Shown here: in pieces, positions 6,001 through 45,844 of the stretch
How positions within the stretch are numbered: the first letter of the stretch is position 1
How the letters are laid out: the number at the start of each line of letters is the position of its first letter
Source of the DNA: Candidatus Poribacteria bacterium
GTDB taxonomy: Bacteria; Poribacteria; WGA-4E; WGA-3G
DNA: 64,000 bases
NCBI GenBank assembly: GCA_022827185.1
Contig: JAJDTM010000038.1
Coordinates: forward strand, 124,001-188,000
Reading direction: 5' to 3'
Notes under the pieces: model-generated
Databases searched by the model: none
Told to the model about the DNA's origin: nothing
What the model saw: the letters and a program-made list of their open reading frames with translations, nothing else
Made by a program: the position numbers and the translations under genes

Positions 6001-6090
6001 AGGACTTACGCAGCCCCGTTTGCTGTCGGGGTTTGAAACCCCGCCAGCAGTGCGTGATAGGTAAGTTATCATGGAAAATGCGTAAGTCCT
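6001..6090. mobile_element. MITE-like element 1 (TIR AGGACTTACGCA / TGCGTAAGTCCT, core GGGGTTTGAAACCCC)
   Basis: 12-bp terminal inverted repeats; flanked by TTCTT at 5995-5999 and 6092-6096. Confidence 0.8.
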
Positions 6091-8174: not shown

Positions 8175-8208
8175 AATAAGAAGATTTATACCTGTAGCAT
8201 AAACTGTT

Positions 8209-8311
8209 GGGGCTTACGTACGACCTCTTAAAGTCCCCCTGATAAGGGGGATTTAGGGGGTTTAAAAAGCGAAAATCTACCATCGTGTGCTAATAAATTT
8301 GCGTAAGTCCT
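8209..8311. mobile_element. MITE-like element 2 (core AAGTCCCCCTGATAAGGGGGATTTAGGGGGTTT)
   Basis: Termini GGGGCTTACGTA / TGCGTAAGTCCT; flanked by ACTGT (8203-8207) and ACCGT (8313-8317). Confidence 0.7.
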
Positions 8312-9068: not shown

Positions 9069-12000
9069 TTGATTGTGAAGAGTGGTAGATACTGCCTCCT
9101 AATCATCTTGACGTGCATAGGATTTGGATTTGGAACGGCAGACGCGCAAGAAAACCTCGCGCAACAGGCGTATACTATCTTTCAACAAAACTGCTTGAAT
9201 TGTCATGGAGAATCCGGTGCCTATAAAGATGAACTCCTGATTGAACGTACCGCGCTCGTTAATACCAGGGTCATTATTCCAGGGGATCCAGAAAACTCAG
9301 AATTCTATAAACGCCTACTCGGTCCTACCGAAAACGGCGCACAAATGCCACTCAATCTACCACCACTCTCACAGGAAGCCGTTGAAACAATTGCCCATTG
9401 GATTACCGCAGGCGCGTCAGATTGGGATGTCCAGTACGACATCAATTTCATTACGACAGATGCGATGCTTGATACCATGCGAACCCATCTGGAGTCGCTG
9501 GATCCGTTTGACCGTCCCTCCGCACGCTATTTTACAATGACGCATCTCCATAACGCGGGTGAAAGTCCTGAAACACTCAACGACTATCGGATCGCGCTCT
9601 CTAAACTCGTAAATAGTCTCTCATGGAGATTAGATATCACAAACCCAACATCCATTGATACTGCCCAAACAATCTTCTATATTGACCTACGGCGTTACGA
9701 ATGGAATACGAGAATCGATGTCTGGACACACATTGAGCAGGCATATCCCTACAACATTGCGTTTGATCCGGAAACACAAGCGGGTCTCCTTGGAAAACTG
9801 ACACAACTACAGACCGAAACAGGCAGCACAGTACCATTTGTCCATGTCGATTGGTTTCTTGCAACCGCCTCGTTACCACCGCTCTACCACGACATTTTAG
9901 GATTGCCACAGACAGACCGTTTATTAGAGACACAGTTAGAGATAGATGTCGCAAGCAATATCACGAACGCGCCAGGGATAAATGTTTGGCGTGCGGGTGT
10001 CAACAATTCCGGTGTTTCCTTAAACAACCGCGTTGTCGAACGCCACGCGTCTCGCTACGGCGCGTATTGGAAAAGTTATGACTTTGCTGGAAACTTAGAG
10101 TCGCAGCACATTTTTACACACCCACTTGATTTTACACACGATGGTGGCGAAATTATCTTCAATCTACCCAACGGGTTGCAGGCGTATTTTCTCGTTGATG
10201 CGAACGGTAGTCGATTGAATGACGCGCCAATTGACATCGTTTCTAACCCCGCCGCCAGCGATCCGACGGTGCGGAACGGTCTCTCCTGTATCGGGTGCCA
10301 TACCCGAGGCATGAAGAAGTTTAAAGACAGCGTGCGCGCGGCGGTTGAACAGGATCAAAACCCATCGTATAACAAAGAACAAGTATTACGTCTCTATCCA
10401 GAACAGTCAGTCCTCGATGAACTCTTACAAAAAGATACCCTTAAATTCCAGCAAGCATTAGAAAAAATTGGCGGTCCGTTTGCGGATGACGCATCGCGAC
10501 AGCAATTCTTCAAGCGACATGAAAATGAACCCGTCCAGCGGTTTCACGAGGCGTTTCAAGCACCGTTAGATGCATCACACGCTGCCGCCGCAGTCGGATT
10601 AGAAACAGCAGAATTCCTCACACAGATACGCGAAAAACAGAGCCTAAAGAACTTAGGATTACAAACACTCACAGATGTAAACGGCACTGTAAAACGGGAT
10701 GCATGGACATCTAACTTTGACGATGTGATTTCTGCGCTGAATACCCCTGATAGTGTGCTGCCGCCGGTTGTGGAGCGTCCGGAGCGGATACCTGGTGCTG
10801 GTCTTTATATTCCGGATGCAAACCTACGTGCTGTGATTGAAGAAGCTCTCGGCAAAGCAGCTGGTGATGTGATTGCGGTGGAGGATATGGAGACATTGAC
10901 TGATCTTGATGCAGAGAACAAGGGCATTCGCGATTTGACTGGACTTGAGTTTGCAACACACATGCAAAGGTTAGTCCTTGGGTTTGAATTTGCCACCAAC
11001 TCAGAAAGGTTAGAACTTAACGGCAACCAGATATCTGACATATCGCCGCTCGCAGGATTAATCAACTTGGAAAGGTTAGAACTTAACGGCAACCAGATAT
11101 CTGACATATCGCCGCTCGCAGGATTAATCAACTTGGAAAGGTTAGAACTTCGCCAAAATCAGATCTTCGACATATCGCCGCTCGCAGGATTAATCAACCT
11201 TATTAGCCTAAATATCCGACGGAACCCGCTATCTGACATATCACCATTGGCAAGTGCAATAAAATTGGAGTTTGTAGAGGTAAGTGACACATTGGTATCG
11301 GATATATCACCACTATCAGCATTAAAAAATCTGAATAAATTTAGTTCTTGGAATAGCCCTATATCCGACATCTCTCCACTCACGCACCTGACAATTATAG
11401 ATATGTGCGGTGCCCCCATATCGGATCTCTCGCCACTGGCAGCGGCGAAAAACTTGAGAGAGCTATATCTCTTGAAATGCAATATATCCGACGTATCGCC
11501 TCTAACGGAATTGACGGGGTTAACGCGTCTAAATCTTGCAGGTAACAACATATCAGATGTATCACCGTTGGCAGCTCTAACGGAGTTGGAATGGTTAAAA
11601 CTCACCGACAATCCGATAACGGATTTCTCACCTTTAGAAACACTCTTCAAAAATACAGATATACTTTTTGATGTTATTATTCCAGATGCAAGTCTCCGCG
11701 CGGCAATTGCAGAGGCACTCGGCAAAGCACCAAACACGGTAATTACAGTGGAGGAGATGACAACCTTGACCCACTTTGAAGCGATTGGAAGGGACATTCA
11801 GGGTTTGAAGGGAATTGAGCTTGCAACGAATCTGACTGAATTAAGAATCGGTCACAATCCGATATCGGATCTCTCACCAATCGCAGTGTTGACACAGATG
11901 CGCGAGATATATTTTAATGATACACAAGTTTCTGACCTTTCGCCACTTGCATCCTTGCGCAATCTTGAGGTGATAAACGCTGCAGCGACCCGTATTTCAA

Positions 12001-14090
12001 GTCTGGCTCCGTTGGCAGGGCTCAAAAATCTGCAAAAGTTAGACACCATACATTCTGATATTTCCGATCTCTCGCCCCTTGAAGGATTGACAAACTTAAC
12101 AAGATTGCTTTTATATGACTGCAAAGCAACCGATTTATCCCCCTTAAAAGGGTTAGCAAAACTGAGATGGCTCGGTTTTCCGCATACCAATAATATCACT
12201 GACTTCTCCCCCTTGTCGGGATTAACAGAGTTGAGGCATCTCGATCTATTCCATACTGAGATTTCAGATCTTTCCCCGTTAGCAGGATTGGTTAATTTGG
12301 AAACGTTGATACTTAATGAAAATCGAATCGTAGATGTCTCACCGCTTGCATCATTGCATAACTTAAAAAGGTTAGAACTTCATATCAATAACATCTCTGA
12401 CTTCTCACCCTTGGATGGCATACGCGAGACTATGGAAGTGTTCAATTGGTACAGCAACCCGGGCTTTCCACAAGGTGGTCCAAAAATTGCGGGACCCTGG
12501 TTATGGCTGACCTTGCCAGCAGAGGGAGACAAAGACGTACTTCTTAGGGATTACTTAGCAAAAGCATCCAACAATAAGGTTACAGAACAACAGATTGCTA
12601 CCCTTGGTACTTCGGAGGGATCTGTTATAGAAGAAAGTGTATGGTCGGCCGGAGCACTTGAAACGTATAAAATTAATGGCAGATGGAGCAATACAGATAA
12701 CCTTGAAAGATTGTTAAACCCGCAAGAGTCTATTGAATTTCCTAACGATGGTAATTTTGTTGTCTATGGTTCTATCACTTTGTATTCTTCGAGAACACAG
12801 CAGACAAAGGTCTTTATGGGTGCCAGTCATCCTCGGAGAGTCTACCTTAATGGCGAGTTAGTCCATGAAGACTATGCGGACTATTACGCAGGAGAATGGG
12901 CGTATGATTACCAAACATTTTTTCCCATCACACTGCAACGGGGAAAAAATGTGTTGTTGGTGAAGCTTGCTAAGCCCTGGAGGAGTGATCTATTGTCTCT
13001 CTTTTTCGGATTTGAACCTGACACCGAATATAAGGTATTCAATCCCCGTGTCGGTTACACCTTCTCTGATTCTAAAATCCATGTCGGTGATACATTTACC
13101 CTTGACCTCAGCGCGGGAGATGTAATAGATTTAGCGGGGTGGCAATTTGATATTTCGTTTGATCCGGCAGTGCTTGAAGCCATTGAAGTCAACGAAGGCG
13201 ATTTTCTCAAAACAGATGGCGGAACGACCTTCTTTCAAAAAGGGACGGTTGATAACACGACTGGCAAAATTACAGGTCTTAATGCAACACGTTTCAACGA
13301 GGACGGTGCCACGGGGACAGGTACATTGCTGTCAGTAACGTTCTTAGCCAAAGCGGAAGGTGAAACCCAATTGACACTAAACAACTTCCAATTGGGATCG
13401 ACCATAGGTGTACCCATTGCCGCAGCCCCTCCCGAGGTTGTCATCACTATTGAAGGACAACTCGTTATTGGAGATGTAAACCGAGATGGACAGGTGAGCG
13501 TCCTGGATCTGATCCTTGTCTCCCGACACCTCGGTGAAGACGCATCTGCTAACCCGCAGGCAGACGTAAATCGAGATGGCGTTATCAACATCCAAGACCT
13601 CATCCTCGTTGCACAACATCTCGGTGAGTCAACCGCCGCTGCAGCACCCTCCATTATTGCAGCAATAAATAACGGAGAACTAACGCCTGCGATAGTCCAA
13701 GCATGGATAACACAAGCACAAATTGAAGATGATGGCTCCATTGCCTTTCAACAAGGCATCACCAATCTTGAACGACTCTTAGCACTGTTCATCCCAGAAG
13801 AAACCGCCTTACTTCACAACTATCCGAACCCTTTCAATCCAGAGACATGGATACCGTATCAACTCGCTGAACCAGCAGAAGTTACCTTGACGATTCATGC
13901 TGTGAATGGGACGCTGGTCCGGACGTTGATATTAGGGTATCAACCCGCTGGCATCTACCAAACCCGCACCCGTGCGGCGTATTGGGACGGCAAAAACGAT
14001 CTCGGTGAACCCGTCGCAAGTGGTGTCTACTTCTATACACTCACAGCAGGCGATTTTAACGCCACCCGAAAAATGCTGATAAGAAAATAG
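9069..14090 (+). CDS. Secreted PSCyt1 heme c / leucine-rich repeat / cohesin-like / dockerin protein with C-terminal sorting-like domain
   Basis: NCLNCHG and CIGCHTRG heme motifs; many SDISPLAGLINLERLELNGNQI repeats; dockerin pair DVNRDGQVSVLDLI / DVNRDGVINIQDLI; C-terminal NYPNPFNPETWIPYQL...VASGVYFYTLTAG. Confidence 0.85.
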   Translation: MIVKSGRYCLLIILTCIGFGFGTADAQENLAQQAYTIFQQNCLNCHGESGAYKDELLIERTALVNTRVIIPGDPENSEFYKRLLGPTENGAQMPLNLPPLSQEAVETIAHWITAGASDWDVQYDINFITTDAMLDTMRTHLESLDPFDRPSARYFTMTHLHNAGESPETLNDYRIALSKLVNSLSWRLDITNPTSIDTAQTIFYIDLRRYEWNTRIDVWTHIEQAYPYNIAFDPETQAGLLGKLTQLQTETGSTVPFVHVDWFLATASLPPLYHDILGLPQTDRLLETQLEIDVASNITNAPGINVWRAGVNNSGVSLNNRVVERHASRYGAYWKSYDFAGNLESQHIFTHPLDFTHDGGEIIFNLPNGLQAYFLVDANGSRLNDAPIDIVSNPAASDPTVRNGLSCIGCHTRGMKKFKDSVRAAVEQDQNPSYNKEQVLRLYPEQSVLDELLQKDTLKFQQALEKIGGPFADDASRQQFFKRHENEPVQRFHEAFQAPLDASHAAAAVGLETAEFLTQIREKQSLKNLGLQTLTDVNGTVKRDAWTSNFDDVISALNTPDSVLPPVVERPERIPGAGLYIPDANLRAVIEEALGKAAGDVIAVEDMETLTDLDAENKGIRDLTGLEFATHMQRLVLGFEFATNSERLELNGNQISDISPLAGLINLERLELNGNQISDISPLAGLINLERLELRQNQIFDISPLAGLINLISLNIRRNPLSDISPLASAIKLEFVEVSDTLVSDISPLSALKNLNKFSSWNSPISDISPLTHLTIIDMCGAPISDLSPLAAAKNLRELYLLKCNISDVSPLTELTGLTRLNLAGNNISDVSPLAALTELEWLKLTDNPITDFSPLETLFKNTDILFDVIIPDASLRAAIAEALGKAPNTVITVEEMTTLTHFEAIGRDIQGLKGIELATNLTELRIGHNPISDLSPIAVLTQMREIYFNDTQVSDLSPLASLRNLEVINAAATRISSLAPLAGLKNLQKLDTIHSDISDLSPLEGLTNLTRLLLYDCKATDLSPLKGLAKLRWLGFPHTNNITDFSPLSGLTELRHLDLFHTEISDLSPLAGLVNLETLILNENRIVDVSPLASLHNLKRLELHINNISDFSPLDGIRETMEVFNWYSNPGFPQGGPKIAGPWLWLTLPAEGDKDVLLRDYLAKASNNKVTEQQIATLGTSEGSVIEESVWSAGALETYKINGRWSNTDNLERLLNPQESIEFPNDGNFVVYGSITLYSSRTQQTKVFMGASHPRRVYLNGELVHEDYADYYAGEWAYDYQTFFPITLQRGKNVLLVKLAKPWRSDLLSLFFGFEPDTEYKVFNPRVGYTFSDSKIHVGDTFTLDLSAGDVIDLAGWQFDISFDPAVLEAIEVNEGDFLKTDGGTTFFQKGTVDNTTGKITGLNATRFNEDGATGTGTLLSVTFLAKAEGETQLTLNNFQLGSTIGVPIAAAPPEVVITIEGQLVIGDVNRDGQVSVLDLILVSRHLGEDASANPQADVNRDGVINIQDLILVAQHLGESTAAAAPSIIAAINNGELTPAIVQAWITQAQIEDDGSIAFQQGITNLERLLALFIPEETALLHNYPNPFNPETWIPYQLAEPAEVTLTIHAVNGTLVRTLILGYQPAGIYQTRTRAAYWDGKNDLGEPVASGVYFYTLTAGDFNATRKMLIRK
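11003..11134 (+). repeat. Near-identical 66-bp tandem repeat encoding one 22-aa LRR unit (plus a diverging third copy)
   Basis: gaaaggttagaacttaacggcaaccagatatctgacatatcgccgctcgcaggattaatcaac begins at 11003 and 11069, related copy from 11135. Confidence 0.9.
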
Positions 14091-14137
14091 TATCAAATGA
14101 CGCTGCCATCACACTCTCCATGACTATTTATGGTGAA

Positions 14138-14287
14138 TTATAGAAATAAGTTGACATTTATCAATAACTCTGTTTGCTCAAAGTCCCCCTGATAAGGGGG
14201 ATTTAGGGGGTTGACTTTGCATTAAGAATGTATAAGTAATTCTAAAATCTACCATAGTTTTATAGTTTGGAAACTTATTTTCTATAT
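14138..14287. mobile_element. Putative second MITE type carrying the GTCCCCCTGATAAGGGGGATTTAGGGGG core
   Basis: Outer arms TATAGAAATAAGTTGACA and reverse complement of TTTGGAAACTTATTTTCTATA are related; core identical to that of elements 2 and 5. Confidence 0.45.
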
Positions 14288-14625
14288 CCATCCTGCCACT
14301 TATATGCTGAAAACCGTTGTAGCATAAACTGTTAGTCTGTGCGTGTATGGGCGCAAACTAAAAGTTTTGCGGCGTACTCGCCCAGATGCAACGTGCATCA
14401 CGCTACGAAAGAGAAAACTAAACACCCCTGTTGCACTCCCGAAGACTTCTTGCCTTTCATGAGAACTTGTGTTATCATATAAGATATGAAGGCGAATTCC
14501 CAAGGAGCGTCGCGCCTAACTTAGATTGACGCAACGATTCCGAACCTTGCCACCAACACTGTTTTGAAAATTCTAAAATCTACTATAATTCCGAACAAAA
14601 CTTCAGAATCCGGAGGAGAGAATCC

Positions 14626-17600
14626 ATGATGGGATGGAGGATCTTTGTTGTCCCTGTTTGTGTATTAATATTCATGACAACATACCAGAATGTTGATGCT
14701 CAAGAAAACCTCGCACAGGAAGTGTCCGCCATATTTGAACAAAGTTGTCTTATTTGCCATGGACCACACGGCTCCTTTACCGAGCAACTCATCATTCAAA
14801 GCAGCCAAGGATTAATTGATTCTGGGGTTCTTATTCCTGGGAACCCTGATAATTCCATATTCTATCAGCGGTTAATCGAAACCGCTGCAGAAAAACGGAT
14901 GCCGCTCGGACAGCCGCCCTTGCCTCCTGCAGCGATTGAGACGATCCGACAGTGGATCCAAGCAGGCGCACCGGATTGGAACGTTTTTGCCAGAACCGAC
15001 ATCAACTTCATTACAACTGAAGAAATGCTTCAGGTAATTGAGAACCATGTCCAATCGCTCGATACATTCGACCGCGCCTTCGCACGCTATTTTACATCAA
15101 CACACCTCTATAACGCAGGCGAAACCACTGAAACGCTTCGCGCGTATCAACGAGCACTTTCAAAACTCGTGAACAGTCTCTCTTGGGGACGTGAAGTTAC
15201 CAATCCGCAACCCATCGATTCAGAAAAAACGATCTTTTATATCGACCTCCGAGATTACGAATGGGAACTCGGTACCAACCGCTGGGCACAGATTGAACAA
15301 GCATATCCATACAAAAATAATTTTGAGTCTCCAACACAGACACATCTGCACGAAAAACTCATGAATCTTCGCCAAGAAATGAACTGCGATGTGCCGTTTG
15401 TTCAGGTCGATTGGTTTCTCGCAACAGCATCCTTACCACCACTCTATCACGATATCCTTGACCTTCCACTCACGGATCGGGAGCTGGAAGCAGAGCTTGA
15501 TGTAGATGTCGGCGAAAATATCATCAATGCAGCGGGAAAACGCGTCTGGCGTGCAGGATTCAACGATTCCGGTGTCTCCAATCATAACCGTATTGTAGAA
15601 CGGCATCTCTCTCGATACGGCGCGTATTGGAAAAGTTACGACTTCGCTGGAAACGTAGGTTCAAAGAATATCTTCACACATCCGCTCAATTTTACACACG
15701 ACGGTGGCGAGATTATCTTCAACCTTCCAAACGGCTTACAAGCCTACTATCTGTCAGATGCCGGCGGCAATCGACTGAATGCAGCACCGATAAACATTGT
15801 TCGCAACCCTGCTACAAGCGATCCGACCGTCCGCAATGGACTCTCCTGCATCGGCTGCCATACGGAGGGGATGAAAACGTTTGAAGATCAAGTGCGCGGT
15901 ATTGTTGAACAGAGTGAGAATCCCCCATTTGACAAAGACCGCGCATTGCGACTTTATGTTGAAAAAACAGTGATGGATGGGCTCATCGAAGAAGACACTG
16001 AACGTTACCGACAGGCACTTGAAGCAACAGGCGATGTATTTGGGGGTATTGAACCGGTTCAACGATTCCACGAGGCGTTTCAAGGTCCACTTGATGCTTC
16101 ACACGCTGCCGCTGCTGTCGGATTAGAGACCGCGGTATTCCTTGGAAAAATTCGTGAGAATGTGAGTTTACAAAACTTAGGATTGCAGGTATTAGAAAAT
16201 GGTACTATGAAACGGGATGCGTGGACATCAAATTTTCAAGATGTGATTTCTGCGTTGAATACCCCTGATAGTGTGCTGCCATCAGTCGTGCAGCGTCCAG
16301 AGCGTATTCCTGGAGCTTCTGTTCACATCCCGGATCCCGCACTCCGTAATGTTATTGTAAATGTGTTAGGTTTATCAGCTAATAAACCTATTACAACTGA
16401 GGATATGGCAAAAGTTAACCATCTGAGTTGGGAACATCATATCGCTGATAGAGGTATTCAAGATTTAACAGGGTTGGAGTATGCGATGAATCTTGAATCT
16501 TTGGTTTTACAGGGTAATCAAGTATCCGATCTATCCCCTATTGCAGGACTCATGAATCTGAGATACCTTTTTCTACGAGGGAGTCCAATATCCGATTTGT
16601 CGCCGATAGCAGGATTAACCAACCTTGAAAATTTAGCGTTGAACGCCAAAGTATTAGATTTATCGCCGATAGCAGGATTGACCAACCTAAAAGGTATACA
16701 GCTTTGGGGAGCGAATCAGATAAATTTCTCGGTTTTTGCAAATCTAAAGAATTTAGAGTCGCTAAGTATGTGGCACGGCACAATATCAAATTTGTCGCAG
16801 ATAATAGGCTTAACAGGGCTGAGACATTTGGAAATCTACGATCATGAACTGGAAGATATATCACCAATAGCTCATCTAACAGGACTGAGAACTTTACGCC
16901 TCGGTGGTAACAGAAATATAACGGATGCGTCTCCTGTTGCGGATTTAATAAACTTGGAATATTTGGATTTCCACCACGATTCAATATCCGATTTATCACC
17001 GCTAGCTGGGTTAATTAACTTGAAAGAACTAAATCTTTACGACAATAGGTTAATATCTGATTTATCATCGTTGACGGGATTAACAGAATTGACACGCCTT
17101 GAACTTCGACGAAACAAAGTATCGGACGTATCTACCTTGGCGGGACTCGTCAACTTGGAATATTTGGACCTTCGCGACAATCCGATAACGGATTTATCAC
17201 CTTTAGAGGCCCTCTCGCAAAATACGAATATACTTGCTGGTGAAGTGGCTATACTCGATCCGAACCTGCGTGCCGCAATTGCGGAAGCCCTTGGGAAAAA
17301 TAATACTGCGATTGTCTCAATTACGGTGGAGGAGATGACAACGTTAACAACCCTCAGAGCAAGTAATAGAGACATTAAAGATTTAACAGGCATTGAGCAC
17401 GCGATAAATCTGGAAGAAATATGGATTGTAAATAATCCTATATCTGATTTATCACCACTTGCCGAATTGAAAAACCTTATTCGTTTAGAGGCTTGGAATA
17501 CCTCCATAGAAGATCTATCACCCTTGGCAGGACTGACAAAACTGAGAAACTTAGTTTTGGCTAGTAATCCAATATCGGATCTATCACCCTTGGCAAGCCT

Positions 17601-19803
17601 AACAAACCTGGAAATACTGAGCATTTATGGAATAGAAACAGTAGACCTCTCACCGCTGGCAGGATTAACCAACCTAATACGACTGCAGATCGCTAACAAT
17701 GAGAGACTATCGGATCTATCACCCTTGGCAAGCCTAATCAATTTAGAATGGCTGGACTGTCACGGTTGTGATTCACTGTCTGATTTATCACCGTTGGCAG
17801 CGTTAACCAAATTAGAATATCTAAACCTTAACCACACCAGAAGAGTGTCCGATTATTCTTTAGCACCATTATCGGGTTTAACAGGATTAAGACGTTTACG
17901 GCTTGATGAGAACAGGATCTCAGATGTATCTCCACTTTCAGGGCTAATCAACTTGGTAAGGTTAGATTTACCGCGGAATGAAATAGTTGATTTATCACCG
18001 TTATCGGGTTTAACAAGATTAACAGAGTTGTACCTTAACGTAAATAGGATCTCAGATGTATCTCCACTTTCAGGGCTAATCAACTTGGAATGGTTAGATT
18101 TACGTGTAAATCAAATCGCCGACATATCCTCTTTAAATGGGTTAGCTGCACGGACATATATAAGTTGGCTCAAAAACCCCGGTGCACCTATAGAGGGACA
18201 AAAAATAGAAGGGCCTTGGTTATGGGTACCGATCCCAGAAAAACAACTTGACAACAGTACAGATTTGTTGTCAGAAGTGAGTGGAGGTTCTGTAATAGAA
18301 CGTCAGATCGCTACGAAAGGTGCAACGGAGGGAGAAGCCGTCGGAAATTACGAATGGACAGCTCATAAAATTTCTCCTATAGGTACTGATAATGGGATTA
18401 TAAATAATATGCATGAAATAGTCCGTGCTTTTGGCTTGCCCGAAGAATATGAATGGTCTACGGAAGTTATGGTTGTCTATGGTTCCGTAATCTTATATTC
18501 ACCGCGAGAACAAAAAACAAGAATGTTTGTGGGAAGTGAAGGTCGCAACAAGGTTTGGCTAAATGGTGAGTTAATCTACGAGCAGTTAATCAGACCTACT
18601 GAATATGATTATTGGTCGGACGATAGTGAGGGTTACCATCAGTATTTTCCTGTCACCCTGAAACCGGGAGCAAATGTCTTATTAGTCGCAGTTGGCAACG
18701 GCGGAACGATTACCGGGCACTTCGGTTTTGAAGAAGGCACAGAGTATACAGTGATGCCGCCAGGTGTCGGTTTCACATTTTCTGCAACGTCAACAAGCGT
18801 TATTCCTGGAGATACATTCACACTGAATCTCAACGCAGAAAACGTTACCGATTTAGCAGGGTGGCAAGCTGATATTACATTTGATCCTGAAGTGCTTAAA
18901 GCGGTTGAAGTCACCGAGCGCGATTTCCTGAAGGTGGAAGGTGGTGCTACCTTCTTCCAGGAGGGCACAATTGATAACACAACAGGGAAAATCACTGATC
19001 TGTTTTCGGCGCGGATATCTGAAAGCGGTATTAGCGGTACAGGCGCACTGCTGTCGGTGACATTCAAGGCAAAAGCAGGAGGCAAGACACAAGTGACACT
19101 GGAAAATTTTGAGTTCAGTTCTATCAGTGGTGCGGTCATTCCTTCTGTTCCGCCCGATATTACCATTATTGTGGGAGAATATCCCGCTTGGGATGTGAAT
19201 CAAGATGGGCGTGTAAGTGTTGTAGATCTGGTGCTTGTAGCAAAAGATTTGGGTTCCGATGTTCCTGCTAACTTGCGGACAGACGTAAATCGGGACGGAG
19301 CTATTAACATCCAAGACCTCATCGTTGTCGCACAACACCTCGGTGAATCAACTGACGCTGTAGCACCCTCCATAGCAATAAACAACGGAGAACTAACGCC
19401 TGCGAAGGTCCAAGCATGGATAACACAAGCACAAATTGAAGATGATGGTTCCGTTGCCTTCCGACAAGGCATCGCCAACCTTGAACGGCTCCTAACACTG
19501 TTCATCCCAGAAGAAACGGCTTTACTTCACAACTATCCAAATCCGTTCAATCCGGAGACTTGGGTACCGTATCAGTTAGCAAAACCAGCGGAGGTAACGT
19601 TAACGATCTATGCCACAAATGGGGCAATCGTCCGAACCTTAGAATTAGGACATCAACCCGCTGGTATCTATCAAACCCGCACCCGTGCGGCGTATTGGGA
19701 CGGCAAAAACGATCTCGGTGAACCCGTCGCAAGTGGTGTCTACTTCTATACACTCACAGCAGGTGATTTCAACGCCACCCGAAAAATGTTAATAAGGAAA
19801 TAA
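14626..19803 (+). CDS. Paralog of 9069-14090: PSCyt1 heme c / LRR / cohesin-like / dockerin protein
   Basis: SCLICHG and CIGCHTEG; LRRs; DVNQDGRVSVVDLV / DVNRDGAINIQDLI; same C-terminal domain NYPNPFNPETWVPYQL. Confidence 0.85.
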   Translation: MMGWRIFVVPVCVLIFMTTYQNVDAQENLAQEVSAIFEQSCLICHGPHGSFTEQLIIQSSQGLIDSGVLIPGNPDNSIFYQRLIETAAEKRMPLGQPPLPPAAIETIRQWIQAGAPDWNVFARTDINFITTEEMLQVIENHVQSLDTFDRAFARYFTSTHLYNAGETTETLRAYQRALSKLVNSLSWGREVTNPQPIDSEKTIFYIDLRDYEWELGTNRWAQIEQAYPYKNNFESPTQTHLHEKLMNLRQEMNCDVPFVQVDWFLATASLPPLYHDILDLPLTDRELEAELDVDVGENIINAAGKRVWRAGFNDSGVSNHNRIVERHLSRYGAYWKSYDFAGNVGSKNIFTHPLNFTHDGGEIIFNLPNGLQAYYLSDAGGNRLNAAPINIVRNPATSDPTVRNGLSCIGCHTEGMKTFEDQVRGIVEQSENPPFDKDRALRLYVEKTVMDGLIEEDTERYRQALEATGDVFGGIEPVQRFHEAFQGPLDASHAAAAVGLETAVFLGKIRENVSLQNLGLQVLENGTMKRDAWTSNFQDVISALNTPDSVLPSVVQRPERIPGASVHIPDPALRNVIVNVLGLSANKPITTEDMAKVNHLSWEHHIADRGIQDLTGLEYAMNLESLVLQGNQVSDLSPIAGLMNLRYLFLRGSPISDLSPIAGLTNLENLALNAKVLDLSPIAGLTNLKGIQLWGANQINFSVFANLKNLESLSMWHGTISNLSQIIGLTGLRHLEIYDHELEDISPIAHLTGLRTLRLGGNRNITDASPVADLINLEYLDFHHDSISDLSPLAGLINLKELNLYDNRLISDLSSLTGLTELTRLELRRNKVSDVSTLAGLVNLEYLDLRDNPITDLSPLEALSQNTNILAGEVAILDPNLRAAIAEALGKNNTAIVSITVEEMTTLTTLRASNRDIKDLTGIEHAINLEEIWIVNNPISDLSPLAELKNLIRLEAWNTSIEDLSPLAGLTKLRNLVLASNPISDLSPLASLTNLEILSIYGIETVDLSPLAGLTNLIRLQIANNERLSDLSPLASLINLEWLDCHGCDSLSDLSPLAALTKLEYLNLNHTRRVSDYSLAPLSGLTGLRRLRLDENRISDVSPLSGLINLVRLDLPRNEIVDLSPLSGLTRLTELYLNVNRISDVSPLSGLINLEWLDLRVNQIADISSLNGLAARTYISWLKNPGAPIEGQKIEGPWLWVPIPEKQLDNSTDLLSEVSGGSVIERQIATKGATEGEAVGNYEWTAHKISPIGTDNGIINNMHEIVRAFGLPEEYEWSTEVMVVYGSVILYSPREQKTRMFVGSEGRNKVWLNGELIYEQLIRPTEYDYWSDDSEGYHQYFPVTLKPGANVLLVAVGNGGTITGHFGFEEGTEYTVMPPGVGFTFSATSTSVIPGDTFTLNLNAENVTDLAGWQADITFDPEVLKAVEVTERDFLKVEGGATFFQEGTIDNTTGKITDLFSARISESGISGTGALLSVTFKAKAGGKTQVTLENFEFSSISGAVIPSVPPDITIIVGEYPAWDVNQDGRVSVVDLVLVAKDLGSDVPANLRTDVNRDGAINIQDLIVVAQHLGESTDAVAPSIAINNGELTPAKVQAWITQAQIEDDGSVAFRQGIANLERLLTLFIPEETALLHNYPNPFNPETWVPYQLAKPAEVTLTIYATNGAIVRTLELGHQPAGIYQTRTRAAYWDGKNDLGEPVASGVYFYTLTAGDFNATRKMLIRK

Positions 19804-24651: not shown

Positions 24652-26061
24652 ATGGAAACCGGACTCCCCATTGTTGCGATTGTCGGCAGACCGAACGTCG
24701 GGAAATCATCACTCTTCAATAGAATCGCTGGAAATACCCATCAGCCATCGGTTCCCGTCAGCGATCAGCAAGAAAATCTCTTTGCTGAAAGCCGAAAGCC
24801 GAAAACCGAAAGCCGTTCCTCGCGTAGATTCGCCGTTGTCCACGATACGCCAGGTGTGACCCGCGACAGACATTACGCAGATGTAGAATGGGCAGACCGC
24901 GCTTTTACCATCGTCGATACCGGCGGCTTGGACATCGATCCGGACGATCAGCTTATCGATAACGTCCAATCGCAGGTAGACACCGCTTTAGATGAAGCAA
25001 GCCTTGTGCTATTTGTCGTTGACGCGCGAACTGGTATCATGCCACACGACATGACTGTCGCTAATAAACTCAGAGCGACCGATAAACCCATCTATCTTGT
25101 CGTCAACAAGGTAGATAGTGAACGCCTCCATAGTGAAGCCGCGGAGTTCTACGCCCTCGGATTCCCCGAACCGATCTGGACATCGTGCGTTCAAAACGAC
25201 GGCATTCGAGAACTCCTCGACCATGTTGTGGACAACCTACCAGAGACGAATGAACCACTACACGATGGATCTGGCACCATAAAAATCGCGATTGTCGGCA
25301 GGCCGAACGTCGGAAAATCGTCGCTTATTAACAACTTATTGGGCGAAGAACGGATGATCGTCGATGATCGACCCGGAACGACGCGCGATGCTGTGAATAT
25401 CCGAATCGTCCACGACAATATCCCTTTCGAGATCGTTGACACAGCCGGCATGCGACGTAAATCCGCCATCAAAGATGAACTCGAATCCGTAACCGTACAA
25501 CGTGCCATACATAGCATCCGCCAGAGCGATATTGCTGTCCTTGTGTTGGATGTAACCCAGGAGGCTGCTCAACAAGATAAAACAATCGCCAAGTTCATCG
25601 AACGGCAGGGAAAAGCCTCCGTTTTAGTCTTAAATAAATGGGATCTGATTGAAAAGGATAACGCAACGCATCCGGCATTTATGGATAAACTTGACGCGCA
25701 GCTTCCACAGCTTGATTATGTGCCACGCGTTTTCGCCTCTGCTGTTACGGGGCAACGCGTCACCCAAATATTAGCAACAGCCTTAGAGGTGCATCGAGAG
25801 TATTGCACCCATATCCCGACACCAGCACTCAACGAATTGCTGCTGGAATTACGGAATGCGCACCCACCGCCGCGTGTTAAAGGTGTGCGTCCTGCGCTGA
25901 AATATATTACGCAAGTCGAGACGCAACCCCCGACTTTCCTAATTTTCGGACGAAACGTAAACCGGGTGCGTCAACCGTATGAGGCGTACCTTGTCAACAA
26001 CATTCGGGAAGAATTCGGATTTCACGGCACACCGATACGTATCTTTTACCGCCGGTCGTAA
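24652..26061 (+). CDS. der: Ribosome-assembly GTPase Der (EngA), two GTPase domains, with ~30-aa insertion in the first
   Basis: IVGRPNVGKSSLFNRIAG, DTPGVTRDRHY, IVDTGG; second IVGRPNVGKSSLINNLLGEERMIVDDRPGTTRDA; C-terminal KH-like domain. Confidence 0.95.
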   Translation: METGLPIVAIVGRPNVGKSSLFNRIAGNTHQPSVPVSDQQENLFAESRKPKTESRSSRRFAVVHDTPGVTRDRHYADVEWADRAFTIVDTGGLDIDPDDQLIDNVQSQVDTALDEASLVLFVVDARTGIMPHDMTVANKLRATDKPIYLVVNKVDSERLHSEAAEFYALGFPEPIWTSCVQNDGIRELLDHVVDNLPETNEPLHDGSGTIKIAIVGRPNVGKSSLINNLLGEERMIVDDRPGTTRDAVNIRIVHDNIPFEIVDTAGMRRKSAIKDELESVTVQRAIHSIRQSDIAVLVLDVTQEAAQQDKTIAKFIERQGKASVLVLNKWDLIEKDNATHPAFMDKLDAQLPQLDYVPRVFASAVTGQRVTQILATALEVHREYCTHIPTPALNELLLELRNAHPPPRVKGVRPALKYITQVETQPPTFLIFGRNVNRVRQPYEAYLVNNIREEFGFHGTPIRIFYRRS

Positions 26062-26067
26062 TCCATA

Positions 26068-26197
26068 ATTGGCTTTCGGAGGAAATGGCAGCCAGTCTTG
26101 AACAGACTTCGATCTTCATTAACCTGTTTGTGGGGGCAAAACGTTTTACCTGCCACGCGTCTTACTGATAGCCGACTGCCGAAAGCCGATAGCCATT
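26068..26197. repeat. Degenerate hairpin repeat with GCCGAAAGCCGATAGCC-type arm
   Basis: Left ttggctttcggaggaaatggcagcc; right ctgatagccgactgccgaaagccgatagcc. Confidence 0.5.
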
Positions 26198-27187: not shown

Positions 27188-27295
27188 AGTCGTCAGCAGT
27201 CGGGGCGGTTTTTCTGCAAAAAACCTTTCAGCAGTTGGTTAAGAGGTTTCTGATGAACATAGCACCTCTTTGCTGACCGCCGAAAGCCGATAGCC
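27188..27295. repeat. Imperfect hairpin repeat (GGTTAAGAGGTTTCTG ... ACCTCTTTGCTGACCGCCGAAAGCCGATAGCC)
   Basis: Inverted core AAGAGGT/ACCTCTT plus GCCGAAAGCC arm. Confidence 0.6.
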
Positions 27296-28620: not shown

Positions 28621-28705
28621 AAGCGATCCGCAATTACTAACCTTCACTGGCGGGGTTTCAAACCCCGCCAGGGGTCTGGTGGTTATCGTTTTACGGAGAT
28701 TTCAG

Positions 28706-37710: not shown

Positions 37711-37801
37711 AGGACTTACGCAGCCCGCGCTGCAGTCGGGGTTTGAAACCCCGCTTGCAGCGCGTCAGACGTCCGTTATCATGGAAAAATGCGTAAGTCC
37801 T
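37711..37801. mobile_element. MITE-like element 3 (same type as element 1)
   Basis: AGGACTTACGCA/TGCGTAAGTCCT termini; flanked by AACAA at 37705-37709 and 37803-37807. Confidence 0.85.
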
Positions 37802-41349: not shown

Positions 41350-41427
41350 AGGACTTACGCAGCCCCCTTGCAGGCGGGGTTTAAAACCCCGCCTGCAGCA
41401 GTGCGTAATACAAAATGCGTAAGTCCT
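41350..41427. mobile_element. MITE-like element 4
   Basis: AGGACTTACGCA/TGCGTAAGTCCT termini, core GGCGGGGTTTAAAACCCCGCC; flanked by AACACA at 41343-41348 and 41429-41434. Confidence 0.85.
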
Positions 41428-45747: not shown

Positions 45748-45754
45748 CCTTCTT

Positions 45755-45844
45755 AGGACTTACGCATTTCCTTTTAAAGTCCCCCTGATAAGGGGGATTT
45801 AGGGGGTTTAAAATACCAAAATTGCTGCTTTTTGCGTAAGTCCT
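45755..45844. mobile_element. MITE-like element 5 (same core as element 2)
   Basis: AGGACTTACGCA/TGCGTAAGTCCT termini; flanked by CTTCT at 45749-45753 and 45846-45850. Confidence 0.85.

Follow-up and report, generated by a model that had tools for sequence, protein, structure and literature searches.

A loop of the GTPase Der in Poribacteria whose sequence is probably an in-frame copy of a dispersed palindromic repeat

The window analysed here, a stretch of 64,000 nucleotides from a Candidatus Poribacteria genome (G000, contig C56, positions 124001–188000), contains a der gene with about 30 extra codons between the P-loop and switch I of its first G domain. Sequence comparison makes it very likely that a MITE-like palindrome specific to the genus is translated in this insert, situated in a Der loop that had been expanded beforehand and tolerated there.

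The der (engA) product has 469 aa and scores 517 bits against the TIGR03594 GTPase_EngA/Der profile (cut-off 306.7). With two tandem G domains, a KH-like domain and an equivalog score above the cut-off, it shows the features of the Der/EngA class. PDB EngA structures match both of its halves, and it is predicted to act as a GTPase for ribosome assembly. It is the single Der of G000, the other two matches being weak GTPase-domain hits of about 65 bits that are probably the paralogues MnmE and Era, and it is 95% identical to the Der of isolate PCPOR1 (Candidatus Poribacteria). Residues 28–57, NTHQPSVPVSDQQENLFAESRKPKTESRSS, are coded by positions 24733–24822 and lie between NRIAG and RRFAVVHDTPGVTRDR, as an earlier note on this DNA had described. 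The alignment to a solved Der/EngA is interrupted exactly at the insert (query 3–28 and 58–467 correspond to 4dcs 21–46 and 46–453), the 30 inserted residues were found in no solved Der, and the G1 and switch I motifs are intact in the alignment. All non-Poribacteria Der sequences that are readable by the motif pattern have the standard P-loop to switch I spacing. A tryptic peptide predicted from the 24733–24825 region contains QPSVPVSDQQENLFAESR. In genome G020, contig C194 encodes a second Der, 37% identical and without the insert; the contamination estimate of G020 is 9%, and C194 is probably a contaminant contig.

Table 1. Features of der and nearby repeat copies, in window positions
Feature	Position	Strand	Basis and remarks
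der (engA), two-domain ribosome-biogenesis GTPase	24652..26061	+	TIGR03594, 517 bits; Foldseek best matches YphC/EngA
P-loop of G domain 1, GRPNVGKS, residues 12–19	24685..24708	+	sequence; invariant alignment columns
Insert, residues 28–58, probably repeat-derived	24733..24825	+	net +30 over canonical Der
Left arm in der copy, AATACCCATCAGCCATCGGTTCCCGTCAGCGATCAGCAAG	24733..24771	+	flanked copies, fold; boundary approximate
Right arm in der copy, CTCTTTGCTGAAAGCCGAAAGCCGAAAACCGAAAGCC, stop-free AGCCGAA heptads	24778..24814	+	flanked copies, fold; boundary approximate
Switch I (G2) motif DTPGVTRDR, residues 65–73, directly 3' of insert	24844..24870	+	P67–R73 invariant
Intergenic right-arm fragment without own hairpin (z 0.4)	26166..26195	+	fold; motif search
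Intergenic copy, right arm, weak hairpin (z −1.7)	27265..27295	+	fold; motif search

The dispersed element consists of two arms of 7-base units (heptads) around a short loop. Its left arm is AATAGCC-RTCAGCC-RTCAGC-AAAGAG and its right arm is CTCTTTGCTGA-AAGCCGA-TAGCCGA-TAGCCATT; terminal inverted repeats are present, the arms (AATRGCY..GCTGA / TCAGC..GCCATT) pairing over most of their length. The der copy is complete: its two arms stand in order with a short loop between them, and its predicted fold is a full heptad ladder at −23.5 kcal/mol (z −3.6), a value reached by none of 200 shuffles. Of the two intergenic hairpins cited in the earlier note, one is a right arm with a weak hairpin; the other holds right-arm sequence but no hairpin of its own (Table 1). 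Flanked copies of the element showed no clear target-site duplication, and their heptad ends are variable. No curated Rfam family was matched, and the one sub-threshold match lay outside the insert, which rules out the insert being a known structured RNA.

Copies of the element occur in all 38 genomes of genus g1, which includes G000, in none of genera g18 and g19, and at 0–5 places per g20 genome. Within an 864-kb sample of G000, 11 of 14 copies are non-coding; those in Der and NuoL are internal and in frame, and an LpxB-like copy is a possible N-terminal extension. The Der copy, preceded by fewer than 60 codons, fell into the automatic class 'Nterm?' and is counted here as internal. We classify the element as a MITE-like palindromic repeat specific to the genus.

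The insert was then compared with these repeats. The motif GCCGAAAGCCGATAGCC, with up to three mismatches, is matched 7 times in the window against 0.16 expected, three of the seven matches lying within the insert. Scored against repeat copies, the insert stands 22 sd above codon shuffles of itself, with the remainder of der at background; the same score gives z values of 4–25 in other repeat-type species and about 0 for ancestral-type loops. Both results bear out the resemblance between insert and dispersed repeat first noticed in the earlier note. A search of the insert DNA against its own genome, which that note had suggested, returned 45 places at E ≤ 10, and for roughly 30 of these E was below 0.006. 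The Der loop has low complexity and unrelated loop sequences occur in other species, as would be expected if a low-complexity loop had merely converged on the heptad sequence through its composition. We give such a coincidence virtually no credence: the z of 22 was obtained against codon shuffles of the same sequence, which rules out a chance low-complexity match, both arms are found in order with a hairpin, and the element is also present in four other unrelated genes. It is similarly far-fetched that assembly or binning produced the insert. All genomes compared are metagenome assemblies, but the same in-frame insert is found in the independently assembled genomes PCPOR1 and Plut_88885, and its distribution is graded and phylogenetically structured.

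The window also holds other repeats. Another dispersed repeat, AAAGTCCCCCTGATAAGGGGGATTTAGGGGG, has three copies (8207–8276, 14157–14226 and 45753–45822), and short perfect palindromes, GGCGGGGTTTGAAACCCCGCC, are present in four or more apparently intergenic copies (6023–6047, 28647–28671, 37733–37757 and 41371–41395). At positions 10997–18136 lie two paralogous regions built of 22-codon leucine-rich-type repeats, whose units resemble each other closely.

In G000 the same element, in the same frame, is also found in proteins that we take, by recognition of their sequences, to be CarA, NuoL, a DagK-type lipid kinase and a TPR/FG-GAP protein. It occupies a linker of CarA and of the TPR/FG-GAP protein and a loop of NuoL, and forms possible N-terminal extensions in ORFs presumed to be LpxB-like, Hal2-like and FAD-oxidoreductase. 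Orthologues were compared for Der, CarA, NuoL and DagK, with DagK differing in the repeat carried. The CarA linker of G000 reads PYAWR[NSRQPSAVSHQPENRLAESRKPEAESH]KVIALDFG; the older linker, of 16 aa (WQHQENNN..KYRV), is kept in G014, G016, G012 and others, and many relatives have linkers of 32–48 residues. Most species have a His-rich loop in NuoL. The repeat is found there only in G000, G010, G032 and G081, which represent three separate lineages, and its segments stand in place of the His-rich loop with junctions and a spacer common to these distant lineages. In nearly all species the DagK loop resembles the repeats, and it carries at least two kinds of sequence. Because the same element and frame recur in CarA, NuoL, DagK and the TPR/FG-GAP protein, and because orthologues without the element show older linkers (CarA, NuoL), we regard it as a protein-coding palindrome outside Rickettsia and Wolbachia that is like the Rickettsia palindromic elements (RPEs). 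The comparison with Rickettsia had been drawn in the earlier note and is apt, since several unrelated conserved proteins carry the same element in frame.

Further copies were seen in passing. The CarA interdomain linker is repeat-filled in many species of the genus and empty in basal species and in those members read of one Der clade, clade (b) below. Some species carry another recurrent sequence in the DagK loop (VARNEMEGGSTER..TEPQGKIKN, and EEGKDGKVGPHPSTVPSFHP), which may stem from a third dispersed repeat family. In-frame copies lie in ORFs named by eye as PdxA-like (G012) and RecG-like (G017); in the PdxA-like ORF of G006 the copy is near the N terminus instead. ORFs of G082, G018 and G025 that look like propeller-type sensors each contain one or more in-frame copies.

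Read in its open frame, the element encodes SHQPSA..QQ..LFAESRKPKAES, and the peptide SHQPSA..QQ..ESRKPKAES is found in all internal copies. Of 25 dispersed copies, 11 have an open frame, and most of these would encode this peptide; typical repeat copies have TAG within ATAGCC heptads. Stop-bearing heptads make up 0 of 12 in internal coding copies and 21 of 58 in other copies (Fisher p = 0.013), or 0 of 21 when the N-terminal fusions are added (p = 0.0009), with the caveat that heptads within a copy are not independent. Predicted translation in a fixed frame is therefore a property of the stop-free copies. In the genes examined, surviving insertions sit at loops and linkers. These observations would be accounted for if an insertion persisted only when it was stop-free, kept the register and fell in a linker or loop.

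We also followed the Der loop across Poribacteria. Between the P-loop and switch I, no extra residues are present in other Poribacteria families or other phyla, and within the family there are +8 in g18, +9 in g20, +25 in g19 and +22 to +49 in g1. The expanded loop was present, with an open reading frame, in every genome of the family that was read. The g19 genome and most g1 species have an ITASAP...RK loop without repeat similarity (z about 0), and 15 g1 species have a repeat-like loop (z 4–25). Ancestral-type loops retain a basic end, R-(S/P)-S-R-K. Since the site is enlarged family-wide, including in sister genera where the element is rare or absent, the sequence evidence indicates that the Der loop is older than the repeat, which replaced or overwrote an older, tolerant loop sequence. 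A repeat origin of the loop for the whole family is ruled out, as G062 and basal g1 species carry ancestral-type loops without repeat similarity and g19 is without copies.

The earlier note had proposed that a repeat inserted in frame between the P-loop and switch I. An in-frame copy is indeed present in the sole Der, but simple insertion into a canonical Der is not supported, the site having already been enlarged family-wide. Alignment of Der from sister species showed a patchy repeat-type loop and an expanded loop already in the sister genera. We did not find phylum-wide conservation without repeat similarity, the outcome named there as contrary to a repeat origin; the loop is absent in other Poribacteria families and the DNA similarity is strong. 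In this family the stretch between helix alpha1 and switch I in the first G domain of Der had already become longer, and in the window's lineage the loop content is a copy of the repeat, read in its one open frame.

Selection on the insert differs from that on the rest of the protein. In repeat-type clades dN/dS was 0.69–2.64 for the insert, as estimated from segments of about 100 nt in few genomes, and 0.04–0.10 for the remainder of Der. Ancestral-type loops gave 0.19–0.58, i.e. some constraint, and given this constraint the Der loop as such may matter. The structure model shows pLDDT below 50 over residues 29–71 and the Der fold elsewhere, although the shallowness of the alignment (38 sequences) may account for some of the low values, since switch I and some stretches of G domain 2 score poorly too. 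We infer that the repeat-type loop is a disordered, tolerated surface loop; the surface exposure anticipated in the earlier note belongs to this interpretation and the low pLDDT to the model itself. As dN/dS is about 0.7–2.6 and disorder is predicted, the insert seems to be tolerated rather than put to use, and the word 'domesticated', applied to it earlier, is not supported. Once inside, such a segment would drift nearly neutrally.

The loop could instead be a functional, lineage-specific regulator, for example in switch I tuning, potassium activation or ribosome binding, whose DNA happens to use the repeat. It lies directly 5' of switch I, it is kept in every family genome read, and the ancestral-type loops combine a dN/dS of 0.2–0.6 with the basic end. 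We nevertheless consider such a regulator improbable, since in repeat-type clades both sequence and length are free (22–49 aa; dN/dS 0.7–2.6) and two unrelated repeat subfamilies serve equally at the same site. Switch I of EngA is part of the potassium-activated catalytic machinery, and an effect of the insert on Der activity, e.g. on switch I or potassium dependence, is therefore possible. Potassium activates both G domains of EngA (PMC3466195).

A Der tree was built without the insert. Repeat-type loops occupy three places on it: clade (a) (G001, G007 and G009; sister, ASAP-type G018), clade (b) (G010, G027, G033, G034, G031, G024, G017 and G008) and clade (c) (G000, G014, G004 and G028; sister, ASAP-type G016). 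Their grouping as one clade, a group named after the tree was seen, is rejected (AU p = 0.0005) and at least three changes are required. This rules out that the repeat-type loop originated once and was then inherited vertically, so that either exchange or repeated replacement is needed. The loops of clade (b) are largely of a second repeat subfamily (GGTTAAGAGATGATCCTGTTGAACCAGAG..TTTAACTGATAAC), which has copies elsewhere in clade (b) genomes, both within other ORFs, in frame, and outside coding sequence. In G033 and G027, other proteins also contain the second-subfamily peptide NRSRLRDNPVEPDPSLTDD in frame.

All repeat-type genomes have closely similar junctions of the Der insert (RCTGSA|AATAG.C and AGCC|GTTCCTCGCGT), and clades (a) and (c) have in common two synonymous right-flank states that are seen in neither sister. 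With flanks included, the (a) and (c) inserts are mutually nearest; for the core only, the (a)–(c) score is 51 against 51, 50 and 49 to other copies, which weakens the case for these inserts being nearest relatives. Because neither core matches the other better than it matches other copies, and because the loops of (a) and (c) are of the GCTGAAAGCC type and those of clade (b) of the second subfamily (TTAACTGATAAC type), independent insertion in each clade without exchange between species has a substantial chance of being correct, if somewhat short of probable. It does not readily explain the closely similar junctions, the two right-flank states common to (a) and (c), or the NuoL copies of three distant lineages with common junctions and spacer. 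We read the loop pattern as local exchange between species combined with overwriting by other repeat copies: after entry, other repeat subfamilies would overwrite the segment, or local recombination would pass it from species to species. More broadly, we suggest tentatively, and without counting it as probable, that several coding palindrome families exist genus-wide and that intragenic copies keep recombining with dispersed copies and across species, rewriting the Der, CarA, NuoL and DagK loops in frame. If true, core proteins of the genus would be the subject of a natural experiment, still under way, in the gain of disordered segments.

The best-known cases of protein-coding palindromes in housekeeping genes come from Rickettsia and Wolbachia, and whether such elements are peculiar to small intracellular genomes was unclear. 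The same outcome now appears in the 4–7 Mb genomes of another phylum, the sponge-associated Poribacteria. The literature searched, judged by titles and abstracts, yielded no account of coding palindromes or repeats in Poribacteria, which is not proof of absence; for STRR heptamers it gave no match either. The 38 species show all stages, from an empty site through an expanded loop and a repeat-filled loop to a second repeat family, so sister-species comparison can test whether such repeats are tolerated parasites or raw material for protein segments. For biochemistry, Der itself supplies an essential GTPase with a naturally occurring loop insertion next to switch I.

RPEs lie in frame in many conserved Rickettsia genes (Ogata et al. 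2000, as reviewed in PMC2229807 and PMC10969869), and a guanylate kinase with an RPE stays active with altered substrate affinity (reviews PMC2229807 and PMC10969869). Similar MITE-driven protein evolution in other prokaryotes has been called conceivable (PMC10969869). Like RPEs (PMC2229807, PMC10969869), the Poribacteria elements are short palindromes of roughly 100 bp, both intergenic and in frame in many unrelated conserved genes, with one prevailing peptide frame, orthologues without the repeat and several families per genome. This likeness is one of kind, by description, and implies no claim of homology to RPE-1 to RPE-10. Unlike RPEs, the element belongs to a different phylum, has arms of tandem heptad units and entered an already enlarged loop; two subfamilies occupy one site in sister clades, and alleles are patchy over 38 species.

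The element also resembles the Correia/NEMIS and enterobacterial RU-1/ERIC MITEs (PMC2229807, PMC2759123), which are small inverted-repeat elements with stop-free variants fused in frame and stop-bearing ones intergenic, a division between intragenic and intergenic forms described for Correia and ERIC elements (PMC2229807). It differs from them in that its targets include an essential GTPase, CarA and NuoL. Finally, palindromic amphipathic repeat coding elements (PARCELs; PMC2996958) are likewise coding repeats with dyad symmetry whose patchy spread suggests horizontal exchange. PARCELs, however, are amphipathic domains of 25 residues that occur in tandem, in ORFs to which no function is assigned, whereas here a single, predictedly disordered copy is carried by core enzymes.
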